Shown here: one piece after another, positions 8,892-17,441 of the stretch
How the letters are laid out: the number at the start of each line of letters is the position of its first letter
Numbering within the stretch: the stretch's first letter is position 1
The notes under the pieces: model-generated
Database searches by the model: none
What the model was told of the DNA's origin: nothing
Seen by the model: the letters and a program-made list of their open reading frames with translations, nothing else
Assembly (NCBI RefSeq): GCF_014596445.1
Contig: NZ_MECL01000002.1
Location: forward strand, 62,001-126,000
Direction: 5' to 3'
DNA: 64,000 nucleotides
Source: Streptomyces sp. CBMA29
Lineage (GTDB): Bacteria > Actinomycetota > Actinomycetes > Streptomycetales > Streptomycetaceae
Translations under genes and position numbers: made by a program

Positions 8892-9431
8892 TCACCAGCT
8901 CGCCGGGGTGTAGTTCTTGCTGTTGAGGACAGCGTTGATGTATTTGCCGGGTGACGGGCCGTCGCGGACCGTGCGCCATTCGGAGCGGGTCACGCCGTAA
9001 TACTCGTAGCCGATGCCGTCTTCGTATTGTCCGGGTGCGATTTTCTGTCCCCGGAATCGAATGAAGAGCGTTTTCGACTGCGAATCCCAGCCCGCTGCCA
9101 GGGTTCGGGGCCTCGGCGGGTTGGAGGTGTTCGTCGGCCGGGTGGTCAGCAGGAGTGAGTCGTCTCCGGCGAATGCGCGGCGCAGGGCCTCTGCCTTGCC
9201 CTGGGACATCCGCTGTGTGGCCCGGTCGATCGCGCTGTCCAGCTCCTGCCGGTCGGCAGGGTTGGAGTGCACGGTCGGCGGGGCGGGCTCCGGAATCAGG
9301 TGCCCGAACATCGCGCGCTCGTAGCGGCTCAGTCCGCCTGCGCCGGTGTTCTCCTGGCGGCCGGAGTGGGGCTGCTCGGGCGGCTGTGCGCCGCCGCCGG
9401 GGCCGAGCGGGCGCCTGTGGTGGGGTGGCAT
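8892..9431 (-). CDS. KTSC-domain protein
   Basis: The 179-residue protein has a disordered N-terminus (about 1-95) and a C-terminal KTSC domain. The domain is visible as AAGWDSQSKTLFIRFRGQ, then YEYYGVTRSEWRTVRDGPSP and GKYINAVLNSKNYTP, matching the short beta-rich domain found at the ends of phage and lysyl-tRNA-synthetase-like proteins. ATG 9431 has GGAGGG 7 nt upstream. The role is unknown; it lies between the integrase and two small genes on the same strand. Confidence 0.75.
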   Translation of the reverse strand: MPPHHRRPLGPGGGAQPPEQPHSGRQENTGAGGLSRYERAMFGHLIPEPAPPTVHSNPADRQELDSAIDRATQRMSQGKAEALRRAFAGDDSLLLTTRPTNTSNPPRPRTLAAGWDSQSKTLFIRFRGQKIAPGQYEDGIGYEYYGVTRSEWRTVRDGPSPGKYINAVLNSKNYTPASW

Positions 9432-9436
9432 GGAAA

Positions 9437-9483
9437 GGCCCTCCGTTTCTCTCGCCGATGTCTCACGGTAGGAGCGGAGGGTC
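9437..9483 (-). terminator. Hairpin downstream of integrase
   Basis: A 9-bp stem with one G-U pair lies between the integrase stop and the KTSC start. One arm contains the KTSC ribosome-binding GGAGGG, so pairing could also limit its translation. Confidence 0.4.
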
Positions 9484-9499
9484 TGTTCCTGATATTGAC

Positions 9500-10594
9500 T
9501 CAGCCCTTGATGGTTTCCCCTTGGGTTGACCAGTCGATTCCGAGCGGGTTTGTGGCGCCACGTGGCAGGCGCTTGGCGCGGTTGGCGTATCCCAGGGTCG
9601 TGTTTGTGTTGCGGTGCCCGTAGTAGTCGCTGACCTGGTGGTCCTTGGCGTCGGGGTGCCGGAGGGAGTAGATAATGGACGTGTATCGCAGAAGGTGCGG
9701 GTGCAGTTTTTCGCCCCGTACACCGGATACGACTCCGAGTTCCTTCACAATGGTGCGGAGTGTGACGGAGCTGACCCCGCCGCGCTCCAGTTCGCCGGTC
9801 TCCGGGTTTCTCCGCTGGCGCCCGTCGCTGACGATGAGCGGACCAGTTTTCCGGTCGCCGATGTATGCGAGGAGTACCGGTGCTACCGCGTAGGGGACGT
9901 CGATGGTGGTCCAACGCCAATTCTTTCGCTGGAAGCGCAGCCGCATCTGATTTTTGTCGTGCCAGCGGAGATTTTCGACGCGTGCTTTCTCCAGCTCTTC
10001 GCAACGCAGTCCCATTCCCACAAATATGGCGAAGACCGCCAAGCTTCGCTGAGTGGGAACGGTGAGGCGTACTTCTCCTGTGGCTCCGCCTTTGGCGATT
10101 CTGCGGATGGCTTCGATCTCGTGCGGCAGCAGGGTCTCCTTGATGACCTCTTCGCCCTCGTCTCCTGAGGGCTGCCGTCCGCGCCTCCTAGTGACAGGGT
10201 TGTGCCGTACAGGGCAGCCGGGGCGTTCGACGCAGTAGGAGTAAAAGGACGATATCGCAGCCCTTTTGACTGCGATCGTTTTTGCCTTGTAAGGAAGCGT
10301 CCCGGACTTGCACTCCAATACGCAGCTTCCGGGGTGTCCGTCCCAGTGTTTCGAGGACAGGTACACCTCGTACTCGCGGAAATCCTCCGGCGCCACGTCG
10401 AGAAGATCGACCTCCGGATAATATCTGCGCATCCACACCATGAACTGTCCGATGTTCACGCGGTAGTCGTGCTGGGTGTCGCCTTTGTATTCGGCGAGGA
10501 AATCAGCGAGCCAGTCGGCGGCGTCTTTATCCGAGTTGCGAGGGCGGCTCCGCCGGGCCCAGGAGGGGGCGGTGCTTGTGGAGGTCTCATCCAT
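9500..10594 (-). CDS. Tyrosine-family phage integrase
   Basis: The 364-residue protein has an N-terminal SAM-like DNA-binding domain (about 20-125) and a C-terminal tyrosine-recombinase domain. The catalytic residues are visible: Arg197 in GMGLRCEE, His300 and Arg303 in HPHLLR, His327 in YYGHRN and nucleophile Tyr336 in LGYANR. It would integrate and, with an excisionase, excise the phage genome. The ATG stands 6 nt after a TAGGGT hexamer with no ribosome site, suggesting leaderless translation. It is divergent from the terminase gene. Confidence 0.95.
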   Translation of the reverse strand: MDETSTSTAPSWARRSRPRNSDKDAADWLADFLAEYKGDTQHDYRVNIGQFMVWMRRYYPEVDLLDVAPEDFREYEVYLSSKHWDGHPGSCVLECKSGTLPYKAKTIAVKRAAISSFYSYCVERPGCPVRHNPVTRRRGRQPSGDEGEEVIKETLLPHEIEAIRRIAKGGATGEVRLTVPTQRSLAVFAIFVGMGLRCEELEKARVENLRWHDKNQMRLRFQRKNWRWTTIDVPYAVAPVLLAYIGDRKTGPLIVSDGRQRRNPETGELERGGVSSVTLRTIVKELGVVSGVRGEKLHPHLLRYTSIIYSLRHPDAKDHQVSDYYGHRNTNTTLGYANRAKRLPRGATNPLGIDWSTQGETIKG

Positions 10595-13439: not shown

Positions 13440-15143
13440 ATGTCCGTCAATTTCGTGTCACCGTCGATGCGTGCCGCTGCCAGCGATCTGACGATCTCCG
13501 TCAGCCCGCTCGGCCTGGTAGAGCTTGCCGACGAGGAATTCGAGGTCCACGGACCACGCCTGACCCGGTATGCCAACGCGTTCGCTTTCTATTTGGGGCA
13601 TCACTGGGCGTACAAGCGGGAGGCCGGAGAGCCCGCCGTCACGATCAATTACGTTGGCGCGCTCTCCCGGTACCTGAACAATTTCTGTTTCGGACGTGGG
13701 GTCCAGTTCGCCGTCGAGGAGAAGTACGAGCACATCACGCCCTCGCTGCTCGACCGCATCTGGAACACCGACAATGACAAACAGACCGTTCTCTGGCAGA
13801 TGGCGGAGAACGGCGGCGTCACCGGTGACAGCTTCGTGAAGGTTGCGTACGAAGGGCCGTGGGTGGATTCCATCAACGTCTACCACCCAGGACGTGTACG
13901 CATCCTGCCGCTGAACTCGGCCCAGGTGTTTCCCGAGTATCACCCCCATGACCGCGACCGGTTGCTTCGCGTGAAGATCCGCTACAAGTTCTGGGGAACC
14001 AGTCTTGAGGGCACGCGGCAGGTTTACACCTACACGGAGATCATCACGGATTCCTGGATCGAGGAATACGTCAACGATGAACTCCTCGACGCCCGCGAGA
14101 ATCCGGCCGGTGAGATCCCGGTCGTTCACATCCCGAATGTCAGCGTCTCGGGGTCGCCGTGGGGCCTGTCCGACATCACCGACCTGATCCCGCTCAACCG
14201 CGAGTTCAACGAGCAGGCCACGAACATCTCCGACATCATCTCGTACCACGCTGCCCCGGTCACCATCATCACGGGCGCCAAGGCATCGAACCTGGAGAAG
14301 GGGCCCCGGAAGATCTGGGGAGGACTGCCCAAGGACAGTCAGGTATTCAATTTGGAGAATGGCGTTGATCTCCAGTGGCCGATCGAGTACCTGAACTTTC
14401 TCAAGCGGTCCATGCACGAGATCTCCGGCGTCCCGGAGAGTGCCCTCGGCCAGATGCAGCCGATCTCCAACACTTCGGGGGTTGCCCTGGCCATCATGTA
14501 TCTGCCGGTGGTCCAAAAGAGCAAGGTCAAACACCAGCAGTACGGCAAGGGCCTACGCAAGATCAACGAGCTGGCTCTCAAAACGCTTTTCATCTACGAG
14601 CCGCTGGCCATGCTGTACAACCCCGACTCCGAGGGAATCGTCACCGACCCGGAGACGCAGCCCCTGGTCCTGGATTTCGCCGACCCCGCCGTCTACCAGG
14701 TGTCCTGCGAATGGCCCCAGCCACTGCCGGTCGACGTCCTGGTCAAGTTGAATGAACTGCAAGCCAAAATGGCACTCGGCCTTGAGTCCCGTCGCGGGGC
14801 TCTGCGAGAGCTGGGTGTGGAGTTCGTGGACGAGAAGATGCAGGAGATCTTTGACGAGCGTCTGCTCGAAGCACGCGAGGACGCGGCCCTGCAATTTATT
14901 AAGGCCAAATTCAACTCTGTTATCTTGCAGTCGACGGGAATCCTGCCTGAGGGCAGCGAAGCGGCCCCGCCTTCACCGAATGCCGGTTCTGATCCGGATG
15001 GCGCGAGCACAGCCGGTCCTCTCCCTGGTCTTCCTGGGATGGGAACGGCGGACAGCAACTCGGTCCTGAGTGAACTCGTGACTCTCTCCGCAGGCACCAA
15101 ATTGGCGCAGCGGAGAAATCCGGACAAAGACTCGAACGACTAG
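13440..15143 (+). CDS. Portal protein
   Basis: The 567-residue protein has the features of a phage portal. It is long and mixed alpha/beta, with a conserved core AENGGVTGDSFVKVAYEG, IPVVHIPNV and the stem/clip-region LIPLNREFNEQATNISDIIS. The helix near 300-350 (KRSMHEISGVPESALGQMQ, SGVALAIMYLPVVQKSK) is characteristic of SPP1-like portals. It forms the dodecameric channel at the head vertex. A strong AGAGGAGGTGA precedes the ATG, and the scaffold gene follows directly. Confidence 0.9.
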   Translation: MSVNFVSPSMRAAASDLTISVSPLGLVELADEEFEVHGPRLTRYANAFAFYLGHHWAYKREAGEPAVTINYVGALSRYLNNFCFGRGVQFAVEEKYEHITPSLLDRIWNTDNDKQTVLWQMAENGGVTGDSFVKVAYEGPWVDSINVYHPGRVRILPLNSAQVFPEYHPHDRDRLLRVKIRYKFWGTSLEGTRQVYTYTEIITDSWIEEYVNDELLDARENPAGEIPVVHIPNVSVSGSPWGLSDITDLIPLNREFNEQATNISDIISYHAAPVTIITGAKASNLEKGPRKIWGGLPKDSQVFNLENGVDLQWPIEYLNFLKRSMHEISGVPESALGQMQPISNTSGVALAIMYLPVVQKSKVKHQQYGKGLRKINELALKTLFIYEPLAMLYNPDSEGIVTDPETQPLVLDFADPAVYQVSCEWPQPLPVDVLVKLNELQAKMALGLESRRGALRELGVEFVDEKMQEIFDERLLEAREDAALQFIKAKFNSVILQSTGILPEGSEAAPPSPNAGSDPDGASTAGPLPGLPGMGTADSNSVLSELVTLSAGTKLAQRRNPDKDSND

Positions 15144-15159: not shown

Positions 15160-15981
15160 ATGACAATTCCGGTAGTGACTCCCGCCGGTCCGGCAGACCC
15201 GACAACGACGACGCCGGGCCAGGCCCCGGTCGGAGAAAGCGTCCGCGTCCAGGAACCGGCCGCTGAGCCCGCCAAGCCCGGCCCGGCCACCGGCGAGCCC
15301 CAGTTCACCGCCGAGCAGATCGAGGCCGCCCGCCGCCAGGAGAAGGACAAGCTCAACCGCCTGGAACAGGGGGACACGGAGCGCAAGGCCCTCCTGGAGG
15401 AGCTGTCCACACTGCGTGCGGAGCGCGAGGAGCGCGCCGCCGCAGAAGCCAAGCGGGAGGCCGAGGCCGAGGATGCGGCCAAGGCGAAGCGCGAGGCGGA
15501 CATGTCCGCCAAGAGCCTGCTGGAGCAGCGCACCCAGGAGTGGGAGGAACGTTTCGCCACCATGGAGCGCGAGCGCGCGACGGAGCGGGAAACCCTTGCG
15601 AAAGAGGCGGAATACAACCGGCTCCGCGCCTATGCCCAGGAGCGCGTCTCCGCTGAGCGGGACAGCATCGCGCCGGAGCTGCACGACCTCATCAACGGCA
15701 ATACGCAGGAGGAGATCGACGCCAGCGTAGAGCTGATGAAGTCCAAAACTCAGGCGATTCTGGATTCGGTCCAGCAGGCACAGACGGCCGCGCGCTCCCA
15801 GATGCGCGGAGTGTCGGCGACCGGGTTCACCTCTCAGGGCCCCCTGGACAGCGACGGGGGTTATCGGAATCTCTCGGCCGAGGACATCAAGAACATGCCC
15901 ATGGCGGAGTACCAGAAATATCGTTCACAGCTACTCGGAGCTGCGTCAGAGCAACACCGCCAGCGCGGGATCTTCGGCTGA
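15160..15981 (+). CDS. Capsid scaffolding protein
   Basis: The 273-residue protein is acidic, with a disordered Pro/Thr N-terminus (1-45), a long coiled-coil from about 55 to 155 (dense Glu/Lys/Ala/Arg heptads such as AERE, KREAEAEDAAKAKREADM) and a short C-terminal segment ending in QRGIFG. This composition, and its position between portal and major capsid protein, are typical of an internal scaffold. It would guide procapsid assembly. Confidence 0.85.
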   Translation: MTIPVVTPAGPADPTTTTPGQAPVGESVRVQEPAAEPAKPGPATGEPQFTAEQIEAARRQEKDKLNRLEQGDTERKALLEELSTLRAEREERAAAEAKREAEAEDAAKAKREADMSAKSLLEQRTQEWEERFATMERERATERETLAKEAEYNRLRAYAQERVSAERDSIAPELHDLINGNTQEEIDASVELMKSKTQAILDSVQQAQTAARSQMRGVSATGFTSQGPLDSDGGYRNLSAEDIKNMPMAEYQKYRSQLLGAASEQHRQRGIFG

Positions 15982-16017: not shown

Positions 16018-17441
16018 ATGGCATCCGGTATCACCGGCACTCCCGTACTGAGTGCCACCCCCACGGCGTATGACAACGCCTCCTCGTCCCGGCTGACTCC
16101 GGCAATCCAGACCATCTGGTCGAAGGAGGTGCTATTCCAGGCCATGCCTGTTCTCCGGTCGTGGGCCGCCTGACAGAGCAATCTGTCAGTGAAAAACCCG
16201 AGAATTGCTGGGATCTCCCGCTAGACCGCAGCACCACAACGTGGGGCGAAAGCCCGAGCGTGATGGTTCGAAAAGCTGAGGGTAGGGACAATCAGCAGCC
16301 GAGCCCGCCTGGCGCAAGTCGACGGGAAGGTTCACAGACTATGTACGGGTTGCCCCACGCGGGCAAAGATATAGTCGGGTCTCACGTGAGAGCGTGAGAG
16401 CCAGGCAGAAATGACCTGGCCCCGCAGCCAGCGGGTAACATAAACGTCGAGCAGTTCATGGTGAAGAAAACCGAATTGGGTACCGCGCCCGGTCTCGCCG
16501 TGAATTTCATGAGGTATCGCAGCCTCGAAGGCGCGCGCCAGCTCGTTGAGGGCGTCCGCATGGAAACCCACGCCCTCAGTGCCGAGATGATCACCATCAC
16601 CGTAGCTGAGCACGGATTCGCCATTTCCGTCACCGAATTGCTCCTGAACGCGAGCTTCGATGACGTCATGGCGTCTGGTGCGCGGCTTCTCGGCCGCAAT
16701 ATGGCGCTGTACCTGGACGGGCAGTGCCGCGACGTTCTCATGCAGGCCCCGAGCGTTATCTACGGCTACGACAAGCTGTCGAACTGGGCCGCCGGAAACG
16801 CCCGCACTCCGATCTCTCCGTACGACCGTGGAATGCATGCGGACAACGAGACGACGATGTCCACCAACGGCGGTTTCTTCTACACGTCCGCGCTGGTCAA
16901 GGACGCTGTGGAGACCCTCGCGACCAAGAACGTCCCGCGTCTCGGGGAAACGTACGTGTCTTTCGTACACCCGCATCAGAGCCGTCGGCTGCGCGATGAT
17001 AGTGAATTCATCGAAGTCACAAAGTATGCGGCTCCCGGCAACTTCATGCTGGGTGAAATCGGTCGTCTGAACGACGTCGTCTTCATCGAGACGACGCAGG
17101 TGTATCAGGGCGCTGCGGGCACCGTGCAGCAGTCCTCGACCATTCCCACGGGGACGAACCAGGGATGGGACGGGCAGGCTGCCCGTGCTTCCTCGGGCAC
17201 GACTCCGGCAATCGGCGCGGTGACTCCGAGCCCGGTAGTTCCCGCGACTCCCGGCCCGTACCAGCTCTACCGTGGTTTGGTAATCGGTGACAACGCGGCG
17301 GGTCACGCCATTTCCCTTCCCGTCGAACTGAGGGATGGCGGCGTGCTCGATTTCGGCCGCGAACACGCCCTTTGTTGGTATGGGGTGTGGGGCTTGGGCT
17401 TGATTACGGATTATGCCGTGGTCCAGACCATCACCAACTGA
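16018..17441 (+). CDS. Major capsid protein (N4-gp56 family), split by intron
   Basis: The coding sequence is join(16018..16159, 16447..17441), giving 378 residues. Exon 1 ends ...AMPVLR plus the first base of a Phe codon. Exon 2 supplies the other two bases and continues EQFMVKKTELG, a segment diagnostic of the N4-gp56 capsid family. Without splicing, translation stops at TGA 16171-16173 after about 51 residues, and the second part would have to start at ATG 16458. The spliced protein includes a core (THALSAEMITITVAEHGFA, ISVTELLLNA) and a C-terminal domain. GAGAGG precedes the start. The family assignment is from pattern recognition. Confidence 0.9.
16160..16446 (+). ncRNA. Group I intron in major capsid gene
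   Basis: A 287-nt self-splicing-type intron. P1: exon CGGU 16156-16159 pairs with GCCG 16165-16168, with the splice-site U16159 opposite G16165. P2: 16170-16177 with 16182-16189, closed by a GCAA loop. P3: AACCCG 16195-16200 with CGGGTT 16346-16351. P4: TGCTG 16206-16210 with CAGCA 16293-16297. A GAAA-capped stem lies at 16244-16255. P7: GACTAT 16337-16342 with ATAGTC 16371-16376. P8: GCCC 16352-16355 with GGGC 16361-16364. P9-type stems lie at 16400-16420 and 16421-16435. The intron ends in G16446. The AAAGATATAGTC segment is the usual phage group I P7 signature. No endonuclease ORF is present. Confidence 0.93.

Follow-up and report, generated by a model that had tools for sequence, protein, structure and literature searches.

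The described introns closest to the element analysed here reside in virion genes of actinophages. In the accessible part of PMC3706429, the insertion in the major capsid protein (MCP) gene of phage LittleE is reported as spliced, on the evidence of RT-PCR, and is considered by its authors to be most likely a group I intron; the lactococcal phage Tuc2009 is also named there. RNAweasel assigns the LittleE intron to group I, according to the available text of PMC11855218. The minor tail gene of the cluster J mycobacteriophages BAKA and Optimus carries another intron; that of BAKA is 265 bp long and free of a homing endonuclease gene (HEG), and its splicing was demonstrated by RT-PCR (accessible part of PMC3706429). 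These systems resemble the present one in that introns interrupt actinophage virion genes, one of them the MCP gene, and are homologous to the second of the two intron families defined below. They differ in having one intron per gene and, in the case of LittleE, in an insertion of 819 bp with an endonuclease ORF (same part of PMC3706429).

Several introns in one phage gene have also been described. A title cited in PMC11878797 attributes three introns to one gene of phage Twort, and the available portion of PMC12363816 describes numerous group I introns from huge phages of the gut, where terL is broken up into two to three pieces. Twort, as far as that title goes, shares with the genes analysed here the presence of several group I introns in a single phage gene; in the present case the MCP gene contains as many as five, and there are indications that introns changed site. 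In fungal rDNA, related group I introns at different sites were read as ectopic spread by reverse splicing (PMC1299323, available part). Kinship between introns at different sites of one gene is the common feature, whereas the fungal introns lie in rRNA genes and those described here in a phage protein gene. In the open-licence literature, surveyed by titles and the beginnings of abstracts, we found no case of several group I introns in one phage MCP gene.

The first-pass annotation of the present locus had called an intron in an actinophage capsid gene unusual, which is too strong in view of the LittleE precedent published in PMC3706429. The more unusual feature, missed by that annotation, is the number of introns in the same gene of relatives. 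We propose, with high confidence, that a HEG-less group I intron removes itself from the capsid mRNA and that its kin colonised the gene repeatedly through ectopic movement and recombination.

Results

Anatomy of the intron

The window, i.e., the whole 64-kb stretch of DNA analysed, was compared with 4227 Rfam families using cmscan. The sole match at gathering level was to RF00028, at 16142-16398 on the forward strand (56.6 bits, gathering score 50, E 1.1e-11); applied to the whole 8.48-Mb assembly, the same Rfam search yielded RF00028 only once. The first-pass annotation had claimed that a group I intron splits the MCP gene and had proposed an Rfam covariance search as a check; the claim is borne out by this match and by covariation. 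The coordinates of the features are collected in Table 1, together with the insertion sites of related introns.

Table 1. Features of the interrupted MCP gene in the window, and insertion sites in the MCP family
Feature	Location	Strand	Details
Exon 1 of MCP gene	16018..16159	+	47 codons and 1 base, 3' end CTC CGG T; translation
Group I intron (predicted to splice)	16160..16446	+	287 nt, last base G; RF00028, covariation, MFE z-score -4.27
Exon 2 of MCP gene	16447..17441	+	reaches stop codon; translation, PHROG and Pfam matches
Internal guide sequence GCCG	16165..16168	+	pairs with 5' exon CGGU to form P1, 4 bp, U.G at splice site
P2 hairpin, GCAA loop	16170..16189	+	98% of cells paired; double-sided change in 6/8 pairs
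P3 5' strand, 5 pairs	16196..16200	+	3' strand 16346-16350; each pair formed in 17/17 introns
P4 5' strand	16206..16211	+	3' strand 16292-16297; intron alignment
P7 5' strand GACTA	16337..16341	+	3' strand 16372-16376, TAGTC; intron alignment
P8 hairpin	16351..16365	+	99% of cells paired; double-sided change in 4/5 pairs
P9 hairpin	16381..16398	+	outermost pair 16380-16399 standard in 5/17 introns only
P9.1 hairpin	16400..16420	+	intron alignment
P9.2 hairpin	16421..16435	+	second pair standard in 3/17 introns only (17-intron alignment)
Site J	codon ~34		L243
Site F	codon ~39		L218
Site A	codon ~48		window, L008, L196
Site B	codon ~53		L009, L093, L095
Site I	codon ~130		L196
Site C	codon ~139		L093, L218
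Site G	codon ~238		L218
Site H	codon ~259		L218
Site E	codon ~309 of 336 in L095		L095, L196
Site D	codon ~361		L008, L009, L093, L218, L249, L171

None of 200 shuffled sequences was as stable as the fold of the intron. The Rfam alignment, the fold and the sequence of the window itself supplied the helices, which were then compared across the 17 introns of family 1, to which the window intron belongs. In the 64 pairs of twelve helices, 94.6% of the cells pair, a figure biased in favour of the structure because the latter was derived from one of the 17 sequences, and 32 of the 64 pairs show double-sided change. Six controls with the 3' partner displaced by 1 to 3 bases in either direction give 30-44% paired cells and 6-10 pairs that change on both sides. 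The paired fraction is 99% for P4, 98% for P7 and 99% for P8, and 84% for P3 when it is counted with six pairs. Double-sided changes are found in two pairs of P3, two of P7 and four of P8, and in none of P4, which hardly varies. Three of the 64 pairs mostly fail, i.e., the outer pair of P3 (standard in 1/17 introns), the outer pair of P9 and one pair of P9.2. It should be noted that base 16351 is counted twice, in the outer pair of P3 and in that of P8, and that the outer P3 pair is unsupported.

All structural elements named in the first-pass annotation are present: P1 of four base pairs with a U.G at the splice site, formed with the guide GCCG; P2 with its GCAA loop, P3, P4, P7, P8 and P9-type stems, most pairs of which are kept across the 17 introns; and the terminal G. 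We take P7 to be the guanosine-binding helix, a role assigned by homology. Subgroup IA is recognised by P7.1/P7.2 between P7 and P3; none was seen between these helices in the window intron, and it is therefore unlikely to belong to this subgroup. According to the ORF list, one forward frame lies within the intron (16161-16397, 78 aa), and the minus-strand frames overlapping it mostly run through the exons; an intron of 287 nt has no room for the usual HEG of a mobile group I intron. Given the match to the core model, the U.G in P1 and the terminal G, the maintained helices P3, P4, P7 and P8 and the in-frame exon join, the element is, as far as anatomy, covariation and frame can be read from sequence, a group I intron that is predicted to splice.

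Host gene and prophage

The MCP gene starts at the ATG at 16018, with a ribosome-site-like stretch, GAGAGG, upstream. Joining the exons at 16159/16447, the boundaries given in the first-pass annotation, restores both the frame and the junction of intronless relatives: a Phe codon split after its first base is completed, the translated junction reads VLR-FEQFMVKKTELG, and the 378 codons of the joined exons contain no internal stop. Without splicing, translation reaches a stop after 51 codons, in agreement with the product of about 51 residues predicted earlier. The exon-2 ORF from 16458 matches the major head protein PHROG 1357 (E 1.2e-50) and also Pfam PF13252 and PF25209. In six Streptomyces phage records (LuckySocke, Alone3, BRock twice, GiJojo and pSt2308), the MCP is in one piece and 58.5-59.8% identical over residues 1-378; the assignment of the host gene as a major capsid gene holds on both counts. 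The peptide LRFEQF across the junction is unchanged in the alignment of the window protein, four of the six intronless phages and L006 (relatives are designated by L numbers), and L46-F51 is invariant in six aligned sequences.

The open frame at 16458-17441 (327 aa) would also permit an arrangement with no splicing, in which exon 1 encodes a small peptide and translation of the capsid protein begins within exon 2, at ATG 16458. This is extremely improbable, because no ribosome-binding-like stretch precedes 16458, whereas GAGAGG precedes 16018, and the residues missing from such a product are for the most part conserved. Furthermore, exon 2 of the relatives often begins in mid-codon, and their introns lie deep in the gene at sites C, G, H, E and D. 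Under the preferred reading, the intron would excise itself from the MCP mRNA of the prophage, and the normal 378-aa capsid protein would be made.

A portal match (13440-15143) is followed by an ORF in the scaffold position (15160-15981), which has no family match, and then by the MCP gene. This order matches that of annotated relatives, of which BRock has a hypothetical protein in the scaffold position; together with the full-length similarity of the MCP, it identifies a Borockvirus-like capsid family. The MCP gene is preceded by the large terminase and portal genes and followed by genes for tail sheath, baseplate, helicase and DNA polymerase; accordingly, a contractile tail is expected. The minus strand carries an integrase match within 9500-10594. 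A 370-aa ORF with a KTSC domain (PF13619) at 8892-10004, minus strand, overlaps the integrase ORF in another frame, and the overlapping stretch probably encodes protein in no more than one of the two.

The contig, C2, is 183,939 bp long. Its GC content is 71.2% in the first 20 kb and 62.9-68.6% in the 8-kb blocks of the window. Among ORFs with GC3 above 0.75, the only ones taken into this comparison, GC3 is at least 0.87 in 16/20 in the first 20 kb and in 0/12 at 42-62 kb of the contig, and such ORFs recur from about 135.6 kb. The region looks like a large actinobacterial prophage in integrated form; the GC pattern is compatible with this, and no bacterial flanking gene was identified. An actinobacterial host is suggested by G148, a genome of the same family whose match positions coincide with those in the genome of L093 (Saccharothrix sp. 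ST-888). In another genome (G124, contig C1), two uninterrupted MCP relatives with equal scores, at 4574171-4575154 and 4683842-4684825, are 109.7 kb apart, approximately the genome size of the related phages; these are possibly tandem prophages.

Introns in related capsid genes

The sample of exon-2 relatives comprised 93 loci: from viral contigs the best 80 among at least 600, and from genome contigs another 13. Four of the 93 are interrupted according to tblastn (L008, L009, L093 from Saccharothrix sp. ST-888 and L095 from S. rimosus NRRL WC-3904), a share that is no population estimate in view of this selection from the viral contigs. The 89 uninterrupted relatives include L017, L036, L071 and L097, whose match starts after residue 20, so that their first residues are unseen. 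The interruptions in the four genes gave nine RF00028 matches, seven of them above the gathering score. Pattern and profile searches added L196 (three introns), L218 (five), L249 (one), L171 (one) and L243 (one in its MCP gene), and RF00028 matches all of these eleven introns except those at site H of L218 and site J of L243.

The MCP family comprises 21 introns of 266-321 nt in 10 genes at 10 sites, the window's included (Table 1); 19 of them match RF00028 at E<=0.1 and 15 at the gathering score. The largest number of introns in one gene is five, on a 4.8-kb metagenome contig (L218), and the maximum for an isolate is three (L093). After removal of the predicted introns, nine of the ten genes are open to the stop codon (328-381 aa), and L243 is open over 224 codons to the end of the fetched stretch. 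Redundant loci were left out of the count. L173 shares its contig with L008, and L156 does not differ from L196 along 2585 bases. Agreement of the match scores led us to treat L245 and L247 as the viruses of L095 and L093, respectively, and the contigs of L247 and L093 are also equal in length. L194, a short piece, was taken as a copy of L196 by its RF00028 score, which equals that of L196 site E. L001, L099, L101, L108, L230-L241 and L251 were also dropped as copies.

At family level, RF00028 was detected in 2/394 genomes (the window's and G148), each time confined to the MCP gene, and at class level in 4/394, including the window's; the filters of this genome survey are strict, and weak matches may be lost. 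The family-1 pattern occurs in 1/391 order-level genomes, the window's own, although it misses some family-1 introns, e.g., that of L009 at site D. A 16-base core pattern matches at least 120 stretches and is too general for a family count. Among 77 records of named phages (29 Mycobacterium and 2 Streptomyces phages included), none matches the window intron over 80% of its length; the best among the matches listed covers 39% of the query (E 0.02). The nucleotide search against plasmids gave no match. For the site-G intron of L218, a wider search yielded 294 records, none of them covering 80%, with at most 46% among the 60 matches listed.

Insertion sites

Splice sites were placed by requiring a T at the end of exon 1, a G at the end of the intron and a matching protein, and the guide was identified as the stretch complementary to the final bases of the exon; because they served as selection criteria, the T/G ends and the guide are not independent findings. 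The nine introns of L008, L009, L093 and L095 and the window's, ten in all, as well as that of L218 at site H, were set by eye. For the ten other introns, an automatic boundary search gave the same result in 6/10 cases. Its top-ranking boundaries were shifted for L218 G and L196 I, and it did not succeed at site D in either L249 or L218; these four were likewise placed by eye. The names of the sites were fixed before the construction of trees.

The 3' ends of the ten sites are GGT (GGU in the RNA) in eight cases and CCT in two; the guide is GCC for the GGT sites and GGG for the CCT sites. The background frequency of GGT is 183/1963 T positions (9.3%), and the binomial probability of at least 8/10 is 2e-7 in a test that was conceived after the sites were seen. 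This bias demonstrates a fit between guide and sites, either at insertion or through the persistence of introns able to splice. It is no proof of reverse splicing because splicing with that guide also needs GGT.

The pairing P10 was considered as a pointer to the direction of movement and was rejected. The arm of L218_G pairs over 4 bp at site B and over 2 bp at its own site, but site I suits it as well as site B does, and L093_C and L218_C likewise have arms that match B and I more closely than the site they occupy. At site F of L218, P10 has 0 bp.

Relationships among the introns

The introns of L093 at site B and of L218 at site G are 94% identical, with 69/71, 67/72, 71/72 and 64/72 in successive quarters, compared with 85% identity between the exons of the two genes; L218 is empty at site B, and L093 is empty at site G. 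In the tree of family 1, these two introns form a clade (98/93), as do the introns of L095 at sites B and E (98/99). The two site-A introns group together (99/99), and so do five of the six site-D introns (100/100). AU tests reject the monophyly of the site-B introns (p 0.0023) and of the site-E introns (p 0.0092). Strict descent of one intron per site is ruled out for sites B and E by the AU tests, and at site A, L196 has a family-2 intron. Thus, the trees, as read from the aligned sequences, do not strictly follow position. The 94% identity combined with the empty reciprocal sites suggests that a family-1 intron changed site within the MCP gene, or arrived from a third source, between close relatives.

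Site change is not the whole story. The introns L171_D and L196_E are alike in one quarter (73/76 columns) and unlike in the rest, a pattern that appears to be the mark of recombination between introns. Four introns (L196_A, L218_F, L218_H and L243_J) constitute family 2, the core of which has 44-58% identity to family 1 in the joint alignment. Site A harbours family 1 in the window and L008 and family 2 in L196; yet the first 14 intron bases are common to L196_A (L196:3649-3918, minus strand) and L008_A. Because these bases are shared despite different cores, the comparison suggests an exchange of modules, L196_A being a putative chimera.

Both the mosaic pair L171_D/L196_E and the presence of the first 14 bases of L008_A on the family-2 core of L196_A are compatible with gene conversion, whereby many early introns were lost in a lineage-specific manner and recombination made introns at different sites alike. 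We consider this explanation unlikely, because L093_B and L218_G are alike in every quarter while L218 has no site-B intron. In addition, 89 of the 93 fetched relatives (by tblastn, with the first residues of L017, L036, L071 and L097 unseen) and the six phage records are uninterrupted, so that an ancestor with many introns needs many exact losses. In the preferred explanation, the related introns would have colonised the MCP gene repeatedly, with up to five per gene and ten sites so far, spreading by movement between non-allelic sites and by recombination among introns.

The LittleE and BAKA introns side with family 2. The family-2 profile matches the BAKA intron at E 1.2e-37 and the LittleE intron at E 8.2e-32 (120.9 and 101.7 bits), compared to 33.1 and 28.7 bits with the family-1 profile, which matches them in the P9 region only; the window's family is not that of the LittleE/BAKA introns.

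Related introns in other genes and the role of endonucleases

Four loci (L135, L162, L167 and L198) contain introns of the same sequence family as the window's, with 175-178 bits for the 5' part (nhmmer). They differ from it in an inserted stop-to-stop ORF of 223-245 aa in the P8 region, and the host gene of L135 belongs to another Pfam family (PF05065, Phage_capsid). The ORF of L167, the only one scanned, is an Endonuclease_7 (PF02945, E 1.3e-21). These sister introns favour spread driven by a homing enzyme, encoded by HEG-bearing sisters or acting in trans, which would have cut the sites so that HEG-less copies were repaired in; homing by endonucleases is a described DNA-based route (PMC3984707, available part). 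Such a history is possible, if somewhat doubtful. None of the 21 capsid introns (266-321 nt) is roomy enough for a usual HEG, and no such ORF was seen in L166, whose match is split like those of the four sisters. Homing is allelic, but the ten sites differ in their flanks. Of the four endonuclease families searched in the window's genome, PF02945 was found once, PF01844 five times, PF01541 once and PF00961 not at all, with none on the prophage contig C2.

The flanks of related introns were viewed at 21 loci, and eight host proteins were scanned, a sample that is no census of host genes. These hosts are PF05065 capsid proteins in four cases (L188, L221, L250 and L135), a major tail protein (L161), a portal protein (L243) and two proteins of an unassigned PHROG (L122 and L213). 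The portal gene of L243 contains at least one intron, of family 1 (L243:2904-3155), and a further partial match at 2383-2475; the same contig also has an MCP intron. On each of seven contigs (L169, L179, L189, L203, L216, L244 and L246), several related intron matches lie close together, and other genes may be as crowded with introns as the MCP gene.

Discussion

The leading explanation for the route of movement, which we put forward tentatively, is reverse splicing guided by the internal guide sequence and not by an endonuclease: HEG-less introns with a near-constant GCC guide may insert at GGU sites of the capsid mRNA and be copied back to DNA, a scenario that we find plausible and still quite uncertain. 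The match between guide and sites is as expected from reverse splicing, for which the capsid mRNA should be an abundant target. A search of the window's genome for an RVT_1 reverse transcriptase gave no match, and a review states, in its available part, that direct evidence for the reverse-splicing pathway is missing (PMC3984707). We infer both that the intron actually splices in this phage and that reverse splicing is the route.

While an intron in an actinophage capsid gene was already known, a crowded gene with introns that seem to change site goes further. Capsid mRNA has to yield very many protein copies, and with up to five ribozymes in it splicing must be efficient; therefore, an intron-crowded capsid gene is a hard test of the tolerance of a host gene for introns. 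Automatic annotation may call such capsid genes truncated or missing. Close phage relatives with different intron sites would offer a tractable bacterial system for the question of how introns move. If the proposed explanation is true, site B of L093 and site G of L218 would record, between close relatives, the transposition of a group I intron within a protein-coding gene of a phage.
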